A stretch of DNA of 64,000 nt from Watersipora subatra. Lineage: Eukaryota; Bryozoa; Gymnolaemata; Cheilostomatida; Watersiporidae. Positions 6,319-48,738 of this stretch are shown here, piece after piece. The DNA lies in assembly GCF_963576615.1 (NCBI RefSeq), contig NC_088711.1, forward strand, positions 3,038,001-3,102,000. The letters are read 5' to 3'. Below the pieces are notes generated by a model. That model did not search any database. It was not told the DNA's origin and saw nothing but the letters and a program-made list of their open reading frames with translations. The translations under genes were made by a program, and so were the position numbers. Each line of letters starts with the position of its first letter. The stretch's first letter is position 1.

Positions 6319-9300
6319 TCACAAACTGTTCAACATCTCTTGAATGACCTTGGATTTGTTTTCCTCCGCTATATCTTGGCACGTTTTTCCTTCCTACAAA
6401 TATACATATTGTTGTGTACAACGCCAGCAGAGCATATTACACCATGAATCGCAACCATCACATAATGGTGGTGATGAGGTCAATACATGAACATTTATTT
6501 AGAAGTCTTTTTTCTCATTAGCTAACGAATTGAGGCCCTTTTTGCTAACGTACACTAGTTCACTATTGTATGTATATATGTGAGTGTAATATAAGTTTAT
6601 TATGTTGTACATTAACGCTCCCGCCAAGTAAAATAGTCATAAAAGTTGGCAAGCTCAATTAGTCGTCGTGCTATTTTGTAAAAAAAGACAGACCCATTTA
6701 CGAACCATAGCACTGTTGCAATAGTTTCATCGCTTGCTTACTCCACGTTATTCTGAAAGAACAGATCTAGCTAGACACTCACAGAGTTCTTGATGTTTCG
6801 ATTGGCTCCATGGTCTAACAAAAGCTTGACTATGCTGCTGTGATTGAACATGCATGCCGCATGCATTGCAGTTTCACCATTCTGACAAAGACATAATACA
6901 GCTATTCAAAGTCTGTGAAGATGAAATAACATCATCATAGTAGAAAGTAATTCATAAGAAGCCTTACAGTTGAAAGGAACTTATCAGTACGCTCAAAGAC
7001 CAGCTTTGATTAGATAATACAATTGCACAGCTAAAATGAGAATAGCAACTACAGAAATAGGTAGAAGTACTAGCCACTGCGATTAACATAATCAACACCT
7101 GCGAGTTGTAATCCGAGCAGCTACACAATTTCACCACAAACCGATGCGCATACTGAAAAGTTAGAAGAAACAGCACGGCATGTGAAAGTTTACAGACCCA
7201 GATAAATGCAGAGAATTGGTCAATGAAATCAGTAACAACGTAGGTTCAAATTTAATTTTTGAACTAACCTCTAGTTACTAACAAGTAAGATGTAAATCAA
7301 ATAGTATGCTATGGAGAGTCCTGTTCAGACTGAGCAGTCAGAGAAGACGCGCAGGATGAGGTGAGTCAAGAAGGGTATGACAAGTGATTATTAAAAAACA
7401 CATTTCTAAAAATAAAGAAATGATTCATTCTGTTTCATACCAAGTTCTCTTTTAATAGTTAGTTTGCCTCTGAAGCCGGCGTCATATGATGGTTTACTGC
7501 ACTATTGTCAGCATTGTAAGACAAGGGGGGCATTGTCGGCATTGTAAGACAAGGGGGCATTGTCAGCATTGTAAGACAAGGGGGCATTGTCGGCATTGTA
7601 AGACAAGGGGCATTGTCAGCATTGTAAGACAAGGGGGCATTGTCAGCATTGTAAGACAAGGGGGCATTGTCAGCATTGTAAGACAAGGGGGCATTGTCAG
7701 CATTGTAAGACAAGGGGGCATTGTCAGCATTGTAAGACAAGGGGGCATTGTCGGCATTGTAAGACAAGGGGCATTGTCAGCATTGTAAGACAAGGGGGCA
7801 TTGTCAGCATTGTAAGACAAGGGGGCATTGTTAGCATTGTAAGACAAGAGGGCATTGTCAGCATTGAAAGACAAGGGGGCATTGTCAGCATTGTAAGACA
7901 AGGGGGCATTGTTAGCATTGTAAGACAAGGGGCATTGTCGGCATTGTAAGACAAGGGGCATTGTCAGCATTGTAAGACAAGGGGGCATTGTTAGCATTGT
8001 AAGACAAGGGGGCATTGTTAGCATTGAAAGACAAGGGGGCATTGTTAGCATTGTAAGACAAGGGGGCATTGTCAGCATTGTAAGACAAGGGGGCATTGTT
8101 AGCATTGTAAGACAAGGGGGCATTGTTAGCATTGTAAGACAAGGGGGCATTGTTAGCATTGTAAGACAAGGGGGCATTGTTAGCATTGTAAGACAAGGGG
8201 GCATTGTCGGCATTGTAAGACAAGGGGGCATTGTGAGCATTGTAAGACAAGGGGGCATTGTTAGCATTGTAAGACAAGGGGGCATTGTCAGCATTGTAAG
8301 ACAAGGGGGCATTGTCGGCATTGTAAGACAAGGGGCATTGTCAGCATTGTAAGACAAGGGGGCATTGTCAGCATTGTAAGACAAGGGGGCATTGTTAGCA
8401 TTGTAAGACAAGAGGGCATTGTCAGCATTGAAAGACAAGGGGGCATTGTCAGCATTGTAAGACAAGGGGGCATTGTTAGCATTGTAAGACAAGGGGCATT
8501 GTCGGCATTGTAAGACAAGGGGCATTGTCAGCATTGTAAGACAAGGGGGCATTGTTAGCATTGTAAGACAAGGGGGCATTGTTAGCATTGAAAGACAAGG
8601 GGGCATTGTTAGCATTGTAAGACAAGGGGGCATTGTCAGCATTGTAAGACAAGGGGGCATTGTTAGCATTGTAAGACAAGGGGGCATTGTTAGCATTGTA
8701 AGACAAGGGGGCATTGTTAGCATTGTAAGACAAGGGGGCATTGTTAGCATTGTAAGACAAGGGGGCATTGTCGGCATTGTAAGACAAGGGGGCATTGTCA
8801 GCATTGAAAGACAAGGGGGCATTGTGAGCATTGTAAGACAAGGGGGCATTGTTAGCATTGTAAGACAAGGGGGCATTGTTAGCATTGTAAGACAAGGGGG
8901 CATTGTTAGCATTGTAAGACAAGGGGGCATTGTTAGCATTGTAAGACAAGGGGCATTGTCAGCATTGTAAGACAAGGGGGCATTGTTAGCATTGTAAGAC
9001 AAGGGGGCATTGTTAGCATTGTAAGACAAGGGGGCATTGTCAGCATTGTAAGACAAGGGGGCATTGTTAGCATTGTAAGACAAGGGGGCATTGTCAGCAT
9101 TGTAAGACAAGGGGGCATTGTTAGCATTGTAAGACAAGGGGGCATTGTCAGCATTGTAAGACAAGGGGGCATTGTCGGCATTGTAAGACAAGGGGCATTG
9201 TCAGCATTGTAAGACAAGGGGGCATTGTCAGCATTGTAAGACAAGGGGGCATTGTTAGCATTGTAAGACAAGGGGGCATTGTTAGCATTGTAAGACAAGG

Positions 9301-12300
9301 GGGCATTGTTAGCATTGTAAGACAAGGGGGCATTGTTAGCATTGTAAGACAAGGGGGCATTGTCAGCATTGTAAGACAAAGGGGCATTGTTAGCATTGTA
9401 AGACAAGGGGGCATTGTCGGCATTGTAAGACAAGGGGGCATTGTCGGCATTGTAAGACAAGGGGGCATTGTCAGCATTGTAAGACAAGGGGGCATTGTCA
9501 GCATTGTAAGACAAGGGGGCATTGTCAGCATTGTAAGACAAGGGGGCATTGTCAGCATTGTAAGACAAGGGGGCATTGTTAGCATTGTAAGACAAGGGGG
9601 CATTGTCAGCATTGTAAGACAAGGGGCATGTGGTTAATATCTTTCTTCACTATTATAACATCTTATTCTTGTAGATAATAAATACAGCTAATGTTTGATT
9701 TTATGTCAGCATGTATAACCTTCACAATAATCGATATTGTATAAATCAGGAAACACATTCTTATTCATGGTAATTTTACATATAGGCATAAAAACCGCGC
9801 GAGTAGGACTATAGTCTATATGAGATATATAAAATGAACTAAACCGAAATTATTTGAGTATAAGCAATGTTGACTTTGGCTAGCATAACCTTATCCCAAA
9901 TAATAAATAGAAGCTGCTGCTGAATCATTGCATGTTCGCTGCCTCAATCTAGTGCTGTAGTACGATGGGTATCAACTCAACACTGCAGTCTAATATCCAA
10001 GACATGTATAACCTTTAAAATGCTATATCGAAAGCGTGTTTAACACTACACGAATTTTGTTTGCAGTACAACACGCGCTCTAAAATAAGAACAACCTTTG
10101 CGCATTTGTTTAGACTCAGTGCTAGGATCAGGATTACATTGTAATTGAGGACTGATGATGGATTGCTATGGTAGTTCTTTCCTACAGCAATTAAACTACA
10201 TGTATGAGCAATACAGAAGACGAAGTCAAGGGCAAAGTTACATTATGCAAATGCAGTACTAAAATGCCATGAAACCCTGTTAGATTATGTTATTCGTGCA
10301 AGTCTACAAACTAAGTACATGTAATGAGATTATTCCAGTAGCTTTAAAGGGGAACTCCCCTGAGAACTTGTAGAATCGAGTAGTACTAGTGCCAGTATAT
10401 CGGTAGCATAATTAGCAACTTCATAGGGTAGCAGATAAATAGTGAGAGCAGGTTTTGTAATGTAAATATCATCACAAATGTTCTAGAGATAGGAAAAGCA
10501 GACTTAAGACTTAGTGTTCTACTTCAAAATTCAGTGCAGCGCCTCTGAAATTTATTCAATACTTCAGTAGGTCTATGGAAAGTGGAGAGATTGCTTTATC
10601 AAGTGCACAAGTTGTTAGATGGTTCGAAGCTAGTCTGACGACGGGACTTCGTAGAAGATGAACTCTGTAAGGAATGATGAAAATGTTGAGTGGATCAGAG
10701 ACCTTGTTTGATACGACTGTTGTTGAACTACCAGATTGTTTGTGGAAGACTTACAAAGCTTAACTAAAGACTTAGAAATGAAGGAATTTTCAGTGAAGTT
10801 TGTGTAAAGGAACTTCACTTTTGAACAGAAAAAGGACTGAAGAGCCATCCGCATGATGCCTGATAACGACCCAGATTTCCTTTTCAATGTGGTTTGTGGT
10901 GATAAAACACGGATTTTTGAGAATGCTCCTAAAACAAAATGCCCAAGTCGAGAATTGCACCTGCAAAGTTTCTTCAACCCAGAATGCCAAGAATGAGCAA
11001 ATCAGGAGGCACAATAATGCTGACGTTCCTTTGGTATAAAGGAAAGATTGTCAATGCAGAATCTGCAGGTTCTTAGAAACTTACAGAAATGAATTCATCA
11101 TTCAGGGGCCACCATCAAGGACAAATTGATGTTACATCATGACAACGCGCCTCCTCACACTGCGCTATCCATTAGAGAATATATAACATGAAAAGCATAA
11201 TGCTTGTACTATAGCCTCCACAATTTTTAGAGTTACGCCCAAAAGCCTTCTTTCTATTCCCAAGAGTTAAGAATCATCTCACAGGACCATCCATTGAAAA
11301 TTCGTGACATCAAAATGGTCATGATGAAACAATTTGAAGGTAATAACAGCTCTAAGTTCTAGCAATGCCATGAGGCTTGGAAACTATCTTGAAGATAAAG
11401 TTGATTAGTAATTTTGTCAACCAACAACCTAGTAGAGAGTCTCATTACTTAGTTTGCATACCTCGAATGTCACACCTGGTGATTCATGACAAAGCGAGAG
11501 GATTTGTTAATAATAATTTACTAATCGTTTGGGATCATCTTTATAGTTATAAGCTTTTCTCTCTAGTTAAAAATAAGGTTTATATGTGCTGTTTTACAGT
11601 ATATACTCTTATTTTACATAGAACATAGCGGTATATCGACTATTATTTTCTACCATAGTTACTAAATGCTTCATGAGTTGTTGCAGTGATTGCTAAAACA
11701 GGATTAATCTAGACTGAAAGGCTGTCTCAAGACCCTGTCTGCCTTTACTAGTAGAATTGCTGCCTCCTACTTAAAATGTCGTCTTTATAAATTAAATGTT
11801 TTGATGGAAGTAATCCATGCAAAAACATATCAATAAATTGTTCCCTTTACTGGCCGACATATCCCTAAATCTTGTGAAATCGTATTTCCACAAACGTTAG
11901 TCATGATGCAAAGACTCCTAGACCGCCACAACCAACTTCATAGATGAGGTAACATTTCCGTATTACGCACATGGCAGATCGCCCAAGGCACACTCGTATT
12001 GCTCAATACTCACTAAAGCCTGGTTCAATACTCGTTAACATGTTTGTACTACGAGCATGACAAATGTGGAGAACTAAAAGACTATAAATAACTTCTGTAG
12101 AATTGGCGGGCACCATTTGAGGAAACCAATTGAGTGTATGATAACATTGATTCCCAGAACAATGACACATTGTTAGATTATTAGATGGATACTAAGATCG
12201 TTTGATCCTAATATAAAATGAAGAGCTCACCTAATGTAGATCATAAGGTACAATCTACTGTAGTCCTTTACTATGTCCAATGATTTTATTTCCTAGAATG

Positions 12301-31100: not shown

Positions 31101-34100
31101 TTGTACATATCAAGAAAAGTTATTTTCAGCTGGGACGGAGGATTGGACTGTCCCAACCATTTTTTCCTGCCTATCTAGCTAATCCTTTCACGACTGAGCG
31201 CACATAACAAAGACTAAATAATAACTAATAATAAAGACTACTCTGTTGAGCAGCGCAATGTGCACCCTAGACATGGAATGAATGTGCATTGAGAGACTGA
31301 AACATTTATCAACCGCCTAATATATTTTGCTAGCAGTTAACATAATGCAGATCTAATAATCTGATTTGTAACTACAGTCAAACTTGGATAGCTCGAACTC
31401 TAACAGATTTGTTTGGTCCGTTCCCACGCAATGATAAATTGCTATAGATAACATCATTAACTCAACAGTTTTTTGCCCAACGACTACCGAGGCAGTCGTT
31501 ATCGCTTTAGAATATCACTTTATTCCAAGCCATAGAGATAAACATCAGCTTTTGGTAGTTCTTAGGCATCGTTATTACCATCATCGGCAAAATATTTTCA
31601 TTAACGATTTTTTTAAAGGTTTGTAAAACATCAAATTTTATCAAACATCTGCTTTGCGATGGCCCTTCGAAAGCAATAAAAAACGAGGTAACCTTCGGAT
31701 AAATTTAAAGTAAACTCGCCAAAGTTTATTTTAGTTAAACCGTTCAGGAGAAACAGGTGTATTTTTCTGGTCCCGTGAAGTTTGAGTTATTCAAGTTTCA
31801 CTGTATTTGTAGCTATGAAAAATTCTTTTGAATTTGCTAACTTTATTCGTTTTTGGGTTTTATAAGTATATATTTGACAAGGTTGTGTAAAAGTCCATTG
31901 CACTGATTCATGTTTGCTAGTTTTCAGCAAAAACTGCCAAAAAATGTGCTATAGAATTTGAGTTTTGGGCCTCTTTTCAGTACAAACCCAGTTTAGATAA
32001 TGGTATTGAGGTTTTCAAACAGGGTTATAAATCTCAAAATTTATCAAATAAATAATAATATATCAAATGGTAAAAAAATTTACAGCAGCTAGTTATACGT
32101 ACATTCAATATTACTGATAATTGCAGGAACTAAAATAAAAATATTTGTATTAATTTAGCATTGCTAGCTTCTATGATGTCTCTAAAAGTTTCGGTCAATA
32201 ATTTTTCCAAAATCTTTAGAGTTAACATTCATGAATGGTTTTAGACACGACATTTTTAAATACTGAAGGAGATTGATTGTTAGTTGATTCTTTTATTTTT
32301 GCTCAATCTATACATATATTTCTTAATCTATACATATATTTCTCAATCTATACATATATTTCTCAATCTATACATATATTTCTCAATCTATACATATATT
32401 TCTCAATCTATACATATATTTCTCAATCTATACATATATTTCTCAATCTATACATATATTTCTCAATCTATACATATATTTCTCAATCTATACATATATT
32501 TCTCAATCTATACATATATTTCTCAATCTATACATTTATTTCTCAATCTATACATATATTTCTCAATCTATACATATATTTCTCAATCTATACATATATT
32601 TCTCAATCTATACATATATTTCTCAATCTATACATATATTTCTCAATCTATACATATATTTCTCAATCTATACATATATTTCTCAATCTATACATATATT
32701 TCTCAATCTATACATATATTTCTCAATCTATACATATATTTCTCAATCTATACATATATTTCTCAATCTATACATATATTTCTCAATCTATACATATATT
32801 TCTCAAAGTTTGTCTGATTTCGGTATGTTCAGCTATTAATAGCAGTTAAACTTCCACATTATGTTGGACTTGAACTCACGTTTACAATAAAATTTGCATC
32901 AGAGTAGGTTATCATAATCCACTCAATTCTTTCTTTCCACTATACTTTTTGCTGCTCTTTCAGTTCAGCAAGCAACAGAATAATTGCAGCAAAAGACCAT
33001 GCTTCAGCACAGATTAACATAGCTGTAGTTGATGAGAAGAATGGACGAATGACTGGTGCTTATAAGACCTATGCCCTTTGTGGCCAGATCCGCAATATGG
33101 TGGGTTGTAAACTGAGTTGGCTGTTATCCTTATCGTTACATTTATTATTTTATGTCTTAGTTCTGATTAGGTGCACAAAGATTACCACACTTCAATTCTA
33201 TCTTCGTCCTCTAAATTAGTATTGACTAGTATGAATGATTGCAGTCGGGATGTTTTGCTGTGAATTATTAGATTATGTGTTGCTGCGCACACAGATTTCT
33301 GGTCACGTCTTTCCTTCATTCGCAGTAGTAATCTAAAAATATTTAAATGATAGCAACTTGGGAGCCAATTTGAAACAGGGAAGTTTCCGTTAATCTGTTG
33401 GCACGATTGCAGCTGTTATCGATTACTTCGCTGAGTCGAAGAGCAGAAGGTCATGGTATGAGATCGTCTGTGAATGTGTTTAAAAATTAGTAATAGTTAA
33501 CTTATTTGTGCAAAGTTCATTAAATTCTGGCATAGGTCCGTCTTCTCATTGACAACAAAAAGGTTAGTGTTAAATTTTTGTGGCATATTGATGGACTGAA
33601 TTAACATTACTTCATTCTAGAATCTGTATAGGTGGTACAAAATTTATTTAATCTATTTGCTTGCTCTACATCATAGATTCATGTATGCAGAAAATTCTTC
33701 GTTAAACAAAATAAACCCATTGAATCTGTCGTGTATGTGTGTGGCTCTGCATGAATAATGATTTTAACAGGCGGTTGTTAGATCTTTGAAATGACAAACT
33801 GGTGCTTTTAATGTTATAATTGGGGTTTTTGTATTTATTTCAGGAGTTTTCTTCTAGCCATTTGGTGCCAATTGAGAAAGCTTTTAGAAGTGTTAACAAA
33901 ACATTTGTGAGTTTAAATGAAATGTAGTTTCCTATTAAAATTTAAAAGGATGAGGTGTGTTAGCCAGCTATGTTTTAAAAGCATAAAAAATATCAAGTAC
34001 TCTGAAAGTTACTGGTTGATTTTGTTAAGGCTAGTTTTTGACTGACTGGCTACTGCTGCTTATAGTCCATGCGCTTATTCTAAGTACCATGGTTTTTAGG

Positions 34101-43958: not shown

Positions 43959-45230
43959 CTACTGCCAGCTCCATTCCCAGTCTGCACTGGCTTTTCCATC
44001 ACCCTGACCTCCGCCACTACCAATACTTTTACCGTGACCACTGTCACTACCAACACCACTTCCACCAACATCTCCAACACTACTTCCACCAACCCTGACT
44101 AGCCCGGAGTCTTTTGGTTGGATCAGTAATGACTCCTCAACCTCATCTCCGTCTCTTCCGTCTTTACCTCGCTCTCCCCAGTAAAATGCAGGCTCGACAG
44201 GCTTCCTGTAGGAGGTCTCCACCTGGGCCGTAACCGGCTGCACAGGGGATGGCACCACAGAGCTGGGAGTTGGCATAGGCCCAGACCTATCTAGCTCGAC
44301 CTCACCTGCAACCAGTGCAGGTCTGCTACCAGCAATTTTCCTCTGAACCTCGGCTAACTCCTGCACCACTACCCTGAATGCCTTTTCCAACTCCATGACT
44401 GCTGTCTCCCGTTTGACTTTCAGCTTAGCCAATTTCTCCTTCGACTTCCTCCGCACCTCCCTTTCCTCTCTTTCAATCTCTGCTACCTTTTTCTCATGAC
44501 CTTCTCTGCCTAACATTCCATTGCTGGATACCTTGGCTAAAAAAGAGCAAACCTTTTCCATTACAGACACAGGTTCAGCTACTTTCTCAGCACCTTCCCT
44601 TACCTCATCGTGACTCTGTTTTCTATCACACCCCATAGACACTTGCACATCTCTGGTGCCTTGGGCTGTCCCCCGTTGACTACCAATTTCCACGTATTCG
44701 CTACTCTTCACCGCCTTGGTTTTACAAGTCCACCAATCTTGACCTGTGTGACCTTTCTTAACTTTGCTCTCTCTGTCAGACTTATTTGTCAGGTTTTGCA
44801 ACTCAACATCATCTGAAACATAACTTGACCCAGCAATAATGGTTCTCGACGAAAACGGCTTAACTGGCTTAATACTTCTACACTCCTTAACAGGCTCAAA
44901 CTTACTTTTGCATAACGCGTTTACAACAGCAAATAATTTAAGCTGCTTCAACTCGGTTATGCCCAAGAAGTTCGTTCTCAATCCTTTTACCACATGAACT
45001 TCAGCATTCATATGCCTGTCTTTACTTTCCAAATGAACTATTACACTTACAACCACTTTTAACTCACTACCATCAGCAGTTTCTAAAACAGTCGACGGTT
45101 TCTTTAACCGTAGGTTCAACTTATTGGCTGTTGCCTCGGTTAATATTGACACCTCAGCCCCAGTATCAAACGTAAACTCTACATTTACTCCATTAACTTC
45201 TAAATACTTTAGAATTCTCTGGCCTAGTCA
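43959..45230 (-). mobile_element. Protease and tail region of the LTR fossil
   Basis: Minus-strand region with a retropepsin signature (FDTGAEVSILT, catalytic DTG) followed by a basic/acidic coiled coil and a proline- and glycine-rich tail. No polymerase domain follows, which is unusual for the position. Fossil; described only as a part. Confidence 0.7.
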
Positions 45231-46538
45231 ACTGTCATCATCATATTTATCCCTCAAACCAGAGAATCTAACACTTCTGCCCTTGCTATTATCCCAGTAC
45301 CTTTCATCATACTGACTCGTCTCGTGCCTCTCCTTATACCGGTCCCCCTTAAGCCTATCTATACTATTGTCCCTGTATCTACTCAACTTGTCTCTTGTCT
45401 CGCGGAGGCTTTCTCGGCCCCTGTACCTCTCCCTACTAATATCCCTGCTGCCATATCGCCCATAGCTACTATCACGGCTACCTCCTGACCTGCTGCTACC
45501 TCGTCTATCGTAACCTACATCTCCTCCCTTATCCCTACAATAACGGGATACATGTCCTCGCCGTCCACAAGAAAAACATTTAATGTGGGGACAACTCCGC
45601 ATCTCATGGCCACTACCTCTGCAATTATAGCAAACTCTATCTCTACTTTCTCTACTGTTTTCTCCATGTCTAGAGACATACCTTTCCCTGCTATTGTCTC
45701 TATACTTCCTACTGCCACTGTCCTTGTTATCCTCCCGGCCTCTTGTCCCATATCTACTAGTATCATGCTCCTCACTACCATATTACTCTCTACTACTCCT
45801 AGGGCTACCTCTAGGGGAAGATCTACCCGCTGAATCATAGCTTCTATCTCTATCATTACTCCTGTACTGCGCTCGGCTATCAAACTCTGATACCTTTGCT
45901 ACTTCTCTCTTAACCTCACTTTTTAAATTGGTACTTCTACCCTCAGTTCTCAAAAATCTATTCGAGTTGTTGGCCATTTTATGAGCCCTCAATGCCTCAT
46001 GCAATAACGCCCAAGTAAGATTGGCATTCTTCATTAAATCTCTGCTTACTTCTCTATCTCTCAACCCGTTAACCGCCACAATAAGGGCAAACCTTACCCT
46101 ATCATTATTGTTAGTCACTTCTGCATATCTGCTCAAACTCTCTACCCGTTGTAAATATTCTCTATCACTTTCTCCAAGTGCCTACCTAGCCGTAAGAAAC
46201 TTATGCCCCTTTACGAACATACTCTCTTGTCTACCATAATAATCCTGCAAAACCTCCACTGCCTCTTCATAAGTAGAATTTACACCATCTACGTTAAACC
46301 CTGCACCCCTCAATACTTCTCTACCACTGTGCCCAATAGCTCTCAATAGTGGCACTAATCTAGCTCTACCTCTCATAATATGTACTCTATTGCCATTTTC
46401 ATCATTTACATAACCTCTCCTCTCGACAGCACTCTCAATACACAAATTCATCTCCTCTATAAATCTCTCCCACGACCCATCACGGTGCTCACCGAACACC
46501 AGCTTCGGAAAACCACTATCCATCCCTACACAACACAA
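45228..46538 (-). mobile_element. Gag region of the LTR fossil
   Basis: Minus-strand gag-like region: an N-terminal capsid-like part (phrases WERFIEEMNLCIESAVERRG and LRAIGHSGREVL), an arginine/serine-rich stretch and one zinc knuckle C-FS-C-GRRG-H-VSRY-C near its end. Fossil; described only as a part. Confidence 0.7.
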
Positions 46539-47052
46539 TACGTTATATTTCTTGCCACAATTTTACTCTACTCGTATAAATTTAATGTATTTGTCACCTC
46601 CGAACACTTAATAAATATCTATACCTCTCCAACACCGATGCTTCACCGCTACAACACCTCACCTCACCACCCTACCGCACCTGCACGCCCGTGAAAGGGT
46701 CTAATCAACCGTTCAACTTGACCCCGTAACCAGAAAAATTACCGCTAATGATAACGCACAAGAAAAAAAATCAGAGCTCCGTCAACTGCGCCATGTTGTA
46801 TAAATCAATGTACTCACATGTACTGATGTGAAGATGAAGAAGAGCCTCTGTCTTACGTTACACTTCCTTATATCCTCCCCCATACTGCCTTACACTAGCT
46901 AATCTACTAGCTTTACCCACTAGCTTAATCCAGCTTTATGCACTCACTGTAATTACCAAGACTACCTGTGTAATAAAAAAAGTGGATGATAAGTACGACA
47001 CTGAGTTTTCGCCATTGTTGACGCAGAATAAAACCCTTAAAATGGAAATGGT

Positions 47053-47068
47053 GGCCCTGAGAAGGGCC
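47053..47068 (-). terminator. Histone-type 3' processing stem-loop
   Basis: On the minus strand GGCCCT-TCTC-AGGGCC followed by ACCA. A 6-bp stem starting GG, a 4-base UYUN loop and the downstream ACC fit the SLBP-bound hairpin that replaces poly(A) in replication-dependent histone mRNAs. A purine-rich U7 site downstream is not obvious (only AAGGG). Confidence 0.65.
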
Positions 47069-47094
47069 GAGGTAGTTGGTGGAACTACTGGCAC

Positions 47095-47499
47095 TTAGAA
47101 GTCGATTTTGACTGGTGAGTCCAGTAGCCCGAGAGGGTCACTATCATCCCTGATAGAGTCTACCGATGGGCGAACGATCTTGGACTCCACTTCATGCCGT
47201 GGAGTAGGGCAAGCATCACGGGATGGCCTCCAGTACGGCCGTCGGTCCTACCGTGGCCTTTGGTTGCATCGCTCTCGGTGATGGTGTTGGCGACGGGGTG
47301 AACACGCCCTCGGTCTCTGAGGTTCAGTCTGGGTAGACTGTGTTCTCCGGTGCTCAGCAGAGACGTGTGCATGCAGGAGAGGCTGAGTGGTGAACCCCTC
47401 ATCACAGGAGGAGCAGCGGTGTCTGTGTACACGAGCGTGCCTCTGTAGGTCACGCTCCTTGTTGCAAGAAAAATCGCAAAAAGTACACGAGTGCTTCAT
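47095..47499 (-). pseudogene. Intronless two-finger C2H2 gene with histone-like promoter and 3' stem-loop
   Basis: ATG at 47499-47497 opens a frame starting MKHSCTFCDFSCNKERDLQR. Finger 1 is C5-C8-X12-H21-X3-H25, finger 2 C29-C32-X12-H45-X4-H50, both canonical, followed by a Gln/Arg/His-rich tail. A TAG at 47250-47248 ends it after 83 residues, but the same frame is open for 50 more codons (ending DSPVKIDF) to a TAA at 47097-47095. The histone-type hairpin lies 27 bases after the distal stop, the usual spacing, and 179 bases after the proximal one, so the original product was probably about 133 residues and this copy has one nonsense change, unless TAG is read through. Known two-finger proteins bind nucleic acid; the function here is unknown. 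No homologue is recognised. Confidence 0.6.
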
Positions 47500-47539
47500 G
47501 CTTGTAAAAGCGAATGAACTGTAAATCAGTGTGTACCCG

Positions 47540-47581
47540 TATTTATAGACAGTCAGCATGCGTAAGAGAGTTGATGACGTC
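47540..47581 (-). promoter_or_regulatory. TATA box and CRE-like site of the zinc-finger gene
   Basis: On the minus strand TATAAATA (47547-47540) lies about 40 bases before the ATG, leaving a leader of only about 10-20 bases, and GACGTCA (47581-47575) lies about 30 bases further up. The compact layout resembles animal histone-gene promoters. Confidence 0.55.
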
Positions 47582-48204
47582 TTTTCTAAGCCTATAATCC
47601 GGCAGCTTCAAATTGCTGACTCAATGGATCTATATTACGTTCGTCGCAATTCAGACAAATTTGAATAGTCATTTTATAAGGCGCACGCTTAACACTTGTC
47701 CAATGTAGTGTATATGTATGGGTTATACTAGCAATTTTTTTACGTTAACCATTTATTACCATATTGTTCTAAGATTTGTATGTTACTATACAAACAATAA
47801 AAATTATTAATACTCGTATTGCGTGATTAGTTAGTGACAAATGTTATCGTTTTTGTATTCGAAATATGTTATTGTGGAATTGGTTGACCTAATTACTGTG
47901 CAGCCAATCAATTGTAGATTTTCCCTGGGATTGCTATGTAACCTGTCAGTTTTATCATTGCTGGTGTGTTACTGCTTGGTACTGAGAGATATAACACCAA
48001 TAAAGATACTGCGTTCTTTACAATAAGCTCTGCTTGATTTTCAAAAGCAAATAGGGTATAAAATTCTTGTCACTGTTTCTGACTTTAGCATTGTGATATT
48101 AGCCAGCGTATCATAGCTGCTTTCACTATAAGTGCTATTGACCGAACATCAAGAATTATTGCGCTTGGCTTGCTAGGGTGTAACAGTTGAGAAAAGACAC
48201 CATC

Positions 48205-48612
48205 GAGTCTGTTTATCGGCTCACCATCGAGTCTGTTTATCGGCTCACTTCCGAGTCTGTTTATCGGCCCACCCACGAGTCTGTTTATTGGCTCGCCATC
48301 AAGTCTGTTTATCGGCTCACCATCGAGTCTGTTTATCGGCTCACTATCGAGTCTGTTTATCGGCTCACCCATGAGTCTGTTTATCGGCTCACCCACGAGT
48401 CTGTTTATCGGCTCACCATCGAGTCTGTTTATCGGCTCACTCCCGAGTCTGTTTATCGGCTCACTCTCGGAGTCTGTTTATCGCCTCCCCATTGAGTCTG
48501 TTTATCGGCTCACCATCAAGTCTGTTTATCGGCTCACCCACTAATCTGTTTATCGGCTCGCCCCTGAGTCGGTTTATCAGCTCGCCCACAAGTCTGTTTA
48601 TCAACTCATCGA
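48205..48612 (+). repeat. 24-bp minisatellite, about 17 copies
   Basis: Units built on GAGTCTGTTTATCGGCTCAC plus a variable CATC/CCAC/TCCC. The unit is a multiple of three, giving spurious open frames on both strands (TIESVYRL and EPINRLDG). It forms the right part of the insertion in the LTR. Confidence 0.95.
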
Positions 48613-48738
48613 GTTTGCGTGAACTCGCTCTTGAGTTGGGAGTTGTCTATCCTCGTCGAGCAGAATTTACTTCACCTGTACTGCCTCGAGCTCAGACACC
48701 AATATAGCCTGAGCCTAACAAATCCCATAATACAACAG

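Follow-up and report, generated by a model that had tools for sequence, protein, structure and literature searches.

Replication-dependent histone genes of metazoans are intronless, possess a TATA-type box and a short leader, and end in a hairpin with a 6-bp stem and a 4-nt loop, followed by ACCA and by a downstream element. Non-polyadenylated ends are described as particular to the mRNAs of these genes in the cited parts of two papers (PMC8178370; PMC3661734). The antisense ORFs of LTR elements form a second group of related systems. In HTLV-1, the product HBZ is a nuclear regulator. HIV-1 has an antisense gene transcribed from its LTR region, and the abstract reporting it mentions no histone hairpin (PMC1654176). 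The plant Ty3/gypsy elements Retand, Grande and RIRE2 carry an extra antisense ORF that sits after pol, ahead of the 3′ LTR, and contains TRP28 or other domains; its protein is thought to be DNA-binding and is kept across families, and there are tandem repeats nearby; the term zinc finger does not occur in the cited text (PMC11963269). Precedents exist, then, for antisense ORFs in LTR elements; for transposon genes with histone hairpins, no report was found in a search that combined histone hairpins or SLBP with either mobile elements or non-histone genes and took in little of the subscription literature.

In this study, we analyze a minus-strand gene located in a 64,000-nucleotide stretch of the genome of the bryozoan Watersipora subatra (hereafter, the window; contig NC_088711.1, positions 3,038,001 to 3,102,000). 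Our preferred explanation, to which we assign a probability of roughly three in four, is that an accessory gene borne antisense by a Ty3/gypsy LTR, with both the layout and the processing of a histone gene, is represented here by a broken copy in a solo LTR. The unit shares with metazoan histone genes the intronless frame, the TATA-type box with a predicted short leader, and the hairpin with ACCA, as well as, in only part of its families, the downstream element. It differs from them in that it codes for a two-finger C2H2 protein and sits antisense in an LTR. With respect to the plant elements, the gene lies wholly inside the LTR and combines C2H2 fingers with a histone-type end. It resembles the retroviral antisense genes in its predicted antisense transcription from the LTR region.

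Anatomy of the unit in the window

The anatomy of the unit can be regarded as practically certain. It is contained in a solo LTR of 1,706 bp belonging to a Ty3/gypsy element (46969..48674), as delimited by the repeat boundaries of paired copies and the edges found in the copies, and comparison of the flanks revealed a CAGG target-site duplication on each side (46965..46968 and 48675..48678). The LTR termini on the minus strand are TGAAGTAAATT...TTATTACA, the retroelement's own sense strand being the plus strand. A 24-bp tandem repeat of 16.8 copies is also found within the LTR (48198..48602).

On the minus strand, a CRE-like ACGTCA (47575..47580) is followed by the TATA box TATAAATA (47540..47547), located 48 nt upstream of the ATG, and by the zinc-finger gene (47095..47499), with its ATG at 47499 and a distal TAA at 47097-47095. 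The gene was recognized from its frame, Pfam, the family alignment and dN/dS. Its product comprises two C2H2 fingers, a QTE motif, an Arg/His-rich middle, RPYWRP and the tail DPLGLLDSPVKIDF. Downstream of the gene come the histone-type 3′ hairpin GGCCCT-TCTC-AGGGCC (47053..47068), which thus presents the 6-bp stem and 4-nt loop soon after the stop, and ACCA (47049..47052), cleavage being expected just beyond it. The site of the histone downstream element (47024..47038) is degenerate, its sequence AAGGGTTTTATTCTG having 4 mismatches to the host motif AAGAGTTGTTC. The sequence-only reading that first described the locus had listed the CRE-like site, the TATA box, the two-finger frame and the hairpin, and all of them were found in place when the sequence was re-read; it had also located the hairpin properly, but the gap between the distal stop and the hairpin is 26 nt and not the 27 it gave. 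That reading further suspected a dead copy of an active multi-copy family, and the window gene is indeed broken by one in-frame TAG at codon 84 (47250-47248).

Gene copies, protein families and selection

Searching the genome with the DNA of the unit yielded 319 candidates, the best 40 of which were scored; all 40 were full or nearly full length, with at least 94% identity. The predicted family is therefore present. The following counts refer to the best 30 of these 40 loci (family 1), the window copy included. The frame was complete, at 134 or 136 codons, in 24/30 loci, the TATA box was present in 30/30 and the CRE-like site in 28/30, the latter also in three of the four printed loci of a second family. 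Intact copies thus retain the reading frame together with the TATA box and the hairpin. It must be noted that two H3 genes and one H2A gene of the host lack the CRE-like site in the stretch of about 100 nt read upstream of them and, therefore, it is not part of the likeness to histone genes.

A protein search gave 278 candidates, with 150 scored matches, a single copy being able to account for two of them. At least 57% identity was reached by 136 matches, and the other 14 had 40-48%. These 14 constitute family 2, most of them with open frames of 146 residues, while family 3 came to light through the hairpin search described below, among 20 hairpin places picked by hand. The identity to the family-1 protein is 47% for family 2 and 45% for family 3. 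The three families have in common two C2H2 fingers, QTE, a basic middle rich in Arg, His and Ser, and RPxWRP, with the finger ligands, QTE and RPxWRP invariant; the tail DPLGLLDS is common to families 1 and 2. By eye, the fingers fit C-x2-C-x12-H-x3/4-H twice. The best Pfam zf-C2H2 models gave values of 1.9e-5 to 3e-4 per protein, all under the curated cut-offs, and the protein profile matched CTCF fingers at 2.4e-10. Retroviral antisense proteins are not known to be related to this product. A possible fourth zinc-finger family is represented by L098, which has degenerate fingers, TTACQTE and a GGCCCTTTTCAGAGCC hairpin, and gave no RF00032 match at E 0.01. When relatives were sought in viral contigs, none of the 58 pattern places was confirmed.

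The dN/dS ratio of the finger frame was 0.31 (40 loci), 0.30 (11 loci) and 0.31 (4 loci) in families 1, 2 and 3, respectively, while the other two frames of the gene's strand gave 0.70-1.35. Over codons 1-62 the ratios were 0.24, 0.10 and 0.12, and over the rest of the protein 0.38, 0.62 and 1.03, where constraint is weaker or absent. The fingers are therefore the constrained part and, as judged by these substitution ratios, they are under purifying selection. In this regard, the pol frame extends into the LTR antisense to the zinc-finger gene, and selection on an antisense frame was considered as the cause of the low values. This was rejected for the finger half, where every antisense frame stops (one copy checked per family: L010, L077 and L103). 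One antisense frame did have low ratios (0.42, 0.42 and 0.26), that of family 3, with 4 copies, falling below the 0.31 of the finger frame; we put this down, tentatively, to shared third positions.

These data also bear on the notion that the frame is a functionless processed zinc-finger gene of the host, or a chance frame inside the LTR. The in-frame TAG of the window copy and the lack of a full frame in 6/30 family-1 loci would agree with it, but the low dN/dS in three families contradicts it, as do the 24 family-1 loci with a full frame and the single architecture maintained across three diverged families. We consider it extremely improbable.

The Ty3/gypsy element carrying the gene

Several family-1 copies were paired at about 6.5 kb from each other, and self-comparison showed direct repeats that were 99.88% (L039), 99.94% (L040), 99.94% (L041) and 97.4% (L042) alike. 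No 5′ edge was found in two of the 30 loci; among the other 28, an element interior adjoins 11, and the remaining 17 are classed as solo or other copies, 14 of which, including that of the window, have identical 4-bp flanks. TG...CA LTR ends and 4-bp target duplications are present. In full copies, gag with a CCHC knuckle is followed in the interior by protease, RT, RNase H and integrase, all of them encoded opposite to the fingers; Pfam searches of L041 pieces confirmed this order. When the sense strand was read by eye, a primer site TGGTGGCAGCGGTGGG was located one base after one LTR, and a polypurine tract AGGAGGGGACAG directly before the other. Given that the interior gag-pol is on the opposite strand to the fingers, the gene is antisense and lies at the U3 end of the LTR. 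Inspection by eye also found gag or RT opposite to the fingers in one family-2 and one family-3 element, and the same opposite-strand layout in one family-3-like element devoid of the ORF. The sequence-only reading missed the context in which the gene is carried, antisense within a Ty3/gypsy LTR. A free-standing host gene is ruled out by the LTR boundaries and the target duplications.

Some additional traits of these elements were observed. The LTRs of L039 and L041 are 97.5% alike, while a piece of their RT shares just 72% at the DNA level and 77% at the protein level; therefore, an exchange of LTR and interior between lineages is probable. Four family-3-like LTRs without zinc-finger frame (L107, L114, L115 and L116) keep the hairpin. 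Some ORF-less LTRs of this type are paired about 5.85-5.9 kb apart (e.g., C2:1986991 and C2:1992844), compared with 6.33 kb in a pair carrying the frame. Since they occur as pairs, the zinc-finger gene is not needed in cis, which suggests that its protein, if needed, can act in trans. AATAAA occurs in the first 150 nt of U3 on the retroelement sense strand in 24/30 family-1 LTRs (about 46969-47119 in the window, plus strand); in the printed copies it stands at the very start of the LTR (TGTAATAAAA), which is unusual for the poly(A) signal of a genomic RNA.

Scoring and conservation of the hairpin

The window hairpin matched the histone 3′ stem-loop model RF00032 with 32.2 bits and an E value of 2.7e-7 (801 bp against 4,227 families). 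At the gathering threshold, 34 for this model, Rfam reported nothing for it. As a yardstick, six histone 3′ regions of the host, out of 16 fetched, were scored with the same model, with values of 31.4 (L117), 34.8 (L119), 31.8 (L120), 34.8 (L121), 29.7 (L125) and 34.4 bits (L113). Only 3/6 exceed 34 bits in a range of 29.7-34.8 and, therefore, the shortfall of the window hairpin means little: in the covariance-model check that had been proposed for the locus it falls below the formal cut-off and within the range of the host's own histone genes. Other loci of the zinc-finger families scored 28.5-34.7 bits, against the 29.7-34.8 of the six host regions. Altogether, 18 of the 20 loci submitted matched RF00032 at E 0.01, the exceptions being L025 and L098. 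Folding of the RNA returned exactly the window hairpin, with a z of −3.76, and 0/200 shuffled sequences were as stable.

The pattern GGCYCTTYTCAGRGCCACCA occurred 397 times in the 784-Mb genome and was never found in the reversed direction. Applying a relaxed rule, the hairpin was present in all 30 family-1 loci, 27 with GGCCCTTYTCAGGGCCACCA and 3 with one change, and in 9/10 fetched family-2 loci, L080 being altered in the first base of the stem. The sequence-only reading had made its proposal depend on the existence of other copies and on a hairpin conserved between them; such copies exist, and the hairpin is kept both between copies and between diverged families. In family 1 the variability of the hairpin was only modestly lower than that of its surroundings (0.008 versus 0.011-0.027), while in family 2 the hairpin plus ACCA (20 bases) had 0.005 per site versus 0.030-0.087 around it, that is, 6-17-fold less. 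In all three families the hairpin sits about 50-85 nt from the LTR end.

Comparison with the host histone genes

The zinc-finger gene consists of a single open frame without introns. The distance from stop to hairpin was 26 nt in the 24 full-frame family-1 loci, 19-20 nt in family 2 and 23-24 nt in the family-3 loci with a full frame. The distance from TATA box to ATG was 48 nt in family 1, about 38 nt in family 2 and about 42 nt in one family-3 locus (ATAAATA). Among three host promoters read, one H3 gene has TATAAA about 40 nt before the ATG, a spacing similar to that of the zinc-finger genes, and one H2A gene at about 59 nt; the second of the two H3 promoters has no TATAAA. Hairpins were found in 14 of 15 histone-cluster 3′ regions, L129 having none within reach, and L113 additionally carries one. 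Six of the cluster hairpins are the exact 20-mer GGCCCTTTTCAGGGCCACCA, the others being variants such as GGTCCTTTTCAGGACC.

About 8 nt past ACCA, the host histone genes have the downstream element AAGAGTTGTTC or a sequence close to it, and the element was scored as ungapped mismatches to this motif. The host genes had 0-3 mismatches (10 measured of 16), family 2 had 1-2 (11 measured of 12), family 3 had 2-3 (4/4), and the family-3-like LTRs without ORF 1-3 (4/4). Shuffled sequences averaged 4.7-5.0 mismatches and had 3 or fewer in 4-7%; two of the four family-3 loci are at 3 mismatches, a level attained by about 5% of shuffles. Family 1 had 3-4 mismatches (30/30), values not better than those of shuffles, its diverged loci 3-5 (5 measured of 10), and the fourth-family remnant 5. 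By this comparison the downstream element is kept in family 2 and, less clearly, in family 3, so it lends some independent support in family 3 and none in family 1, to which the window copy belongs. It must be considered that, among the segments past the stop in family 2, the one with the element shows the highest variability (0.087), a value that comes partly from a 3-base deletion in L079 and from changes outside the element core. No AATAAA or ATTAAA was found between the stop and the LTR end in 30 family-1 and 10 family-2 loci. With respect to the machinery, SLBP domain exons occur at two places in the host genome. RF00066 (U7 snRNA) had no match in it, nor in any control genome, and a pattern complementary to the histone element was found at 7 places versus 24 in the reversed control.

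The hairpin could instead serve the retroelement, as a U3-end structure acting in reverse transcription, integration or packaging, its likeness to histone genes being incidental. Its position near the LTR end in the three families and its persistence in LTRs without ORF would suit such a role. Nevertheless, ACCA occurs on the gene's side only, as does the downstream motif of families 2 and 3, and both match the host histone genes; in all three families a selected frame ends 19-26 nt before the hairpin; and LTR-less Tc1 elements carry it after their transposase stop (see below). Consequently, we regard this role as very unlikely.

The gene might also be real and selected but transcribed for the most part past the hairpin, with polyadenylation of its mRNA downstream; in that case the hairpin would be a relic of capture from a histone-like 3′ end. 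The poor downstream element of family 1 is compatible with this, and some H2B genes can also give polyadenylated mRNA, according to the cited part of a paper (PMC3661734). The conservation of the hairpin across families whose proteins are 45-47% identical argues against it, and so do two further facts: family 2 and, to some extent, family 3 have kept the downstream element, and AATAAA and ATTAAA are lacking up to the LTR end in families 1 and 2. Read-through thus seems unlikely, and histone-type processing of the antisense mRNA appears to be the probable outcome. In this respect, the sequence supports the earlier proposal that a gene without introns, coding for something other than a histone, has a histone-type 3′ end.

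Predicted expression and function

Under our preferred reading of an LTR-borne gene with histone-type processing, each LTR would contain a complete, self-contained gene, antisense to gag-pol and copied with every insertion, made up of a TATA-type box, a short leader, a frame of 134-143 codons, a stop, 19-26 nt, an SLBP-type hairpin with ACCA and the place of a U7-pairing element. Pol II would transcribe it from the gene's own promoter, SLBP would bind the hairpin and the U7 snRNP would cut a few bases past ACCA, giving an mRNA predicted to be non-polyadenylated and linked to S phase. The antisense placement may spare the genomic RNA from the cleavage directed by the one-sided hairpin. The product would be a small, basic, nuclear protein of two fingers that binds nucleic acid, either DNA or RNA. 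It might be a regulatory accessory of the element, influencing either the transcription of the LTR or steps that take place in the nucleus or are linked to replication; this regulatory role is our best guess by analogy with the retroviral and plant Retand antisense genes, and we propose it tentatively, as somewhat less than an even chance.

Tc1/mariner transposase genes with the same hairpin

Among 75 scored RF00032 hits in the genome, 28 were examined and no histone frame was recognized in any of them; therefore, RF00032 hits cannot be read as histone genes. Comparison of the lists by eye likewise placed none of the 75 at a PF00125 match. The best RF00032 scores of the genome correspond to Tc1/mariner transposase genes and not to histone genes. 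A Tc1/mariner transposase frame (HTH_Tnp_Tc3_2, DDE_3) was located upstream of the hairpin in four of the loci L001-L008, and a frame with an intact end before the hairpin in 10 of 20 further RF00032 loci; other loci share Tc1-type tails without a recognizable frame. In several Tc1/mariner families the hairpin lies about 20-53 nt past the stop (L001-L008, L054-L073, L099, L101, L108, L109 and L111). The downstream motif, measured in 34 loci of the Tc1 group, had 0 mismatches in 4 loci, 1 in 1, 2 in 4, 3 in 20 and 4 in 5.

The 20 further places of the hairpin pattern, hand-picked from the listed part of the 397 with the exclusion of those already seen, comprised seven Tc1-type tails (five with a transposase frame), two family-2 loci, four family-3 loci with ORF, four ORF-less family-3-like LTRs, one possible fourth-family remnant, one H2A gene and one unknown.

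The hairpin is shared by Tc1/mariner and Ty3/gypsy loci and, therefore, two unrelated classes of mobile elements carry it. On the basis of these sequences, it is somewhat more probable than the contrary that both classes have recruited the histone mRNA 3′-end pathway in this animal, one for an antisense zinc-finger gene and the other for the transposase mRNA. If so, the expression of mobile elements would be tied to DNA replication and freed from poly(A) tails, which would constitute a natural route to S-phase-timed transposon expression, and the non-histone SLBP-dependent mRNAs encoded by transposons would outnumber the host histone genes. The histone 3′-end pathway would then be open to capture by other genes, and these mRNAs would offer non-histone substrates for asking what the hairpin alone specifies.

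Other features of the window

The frames adjoining the solo LTR on the minus strand (43959-46538) resemble a different retroelement; they are gag-like by eye, with a gag-asp protease match at E 0.1, below the cut-off. In addition, the window contains long tandem arrays of short period and long frames coded by repeats, from 53947 onward and at 7563-9622, 32277-32849 and 48198-48602, the repeated unit being 16 bp near 54 kb and 24 bp inside the LTR.
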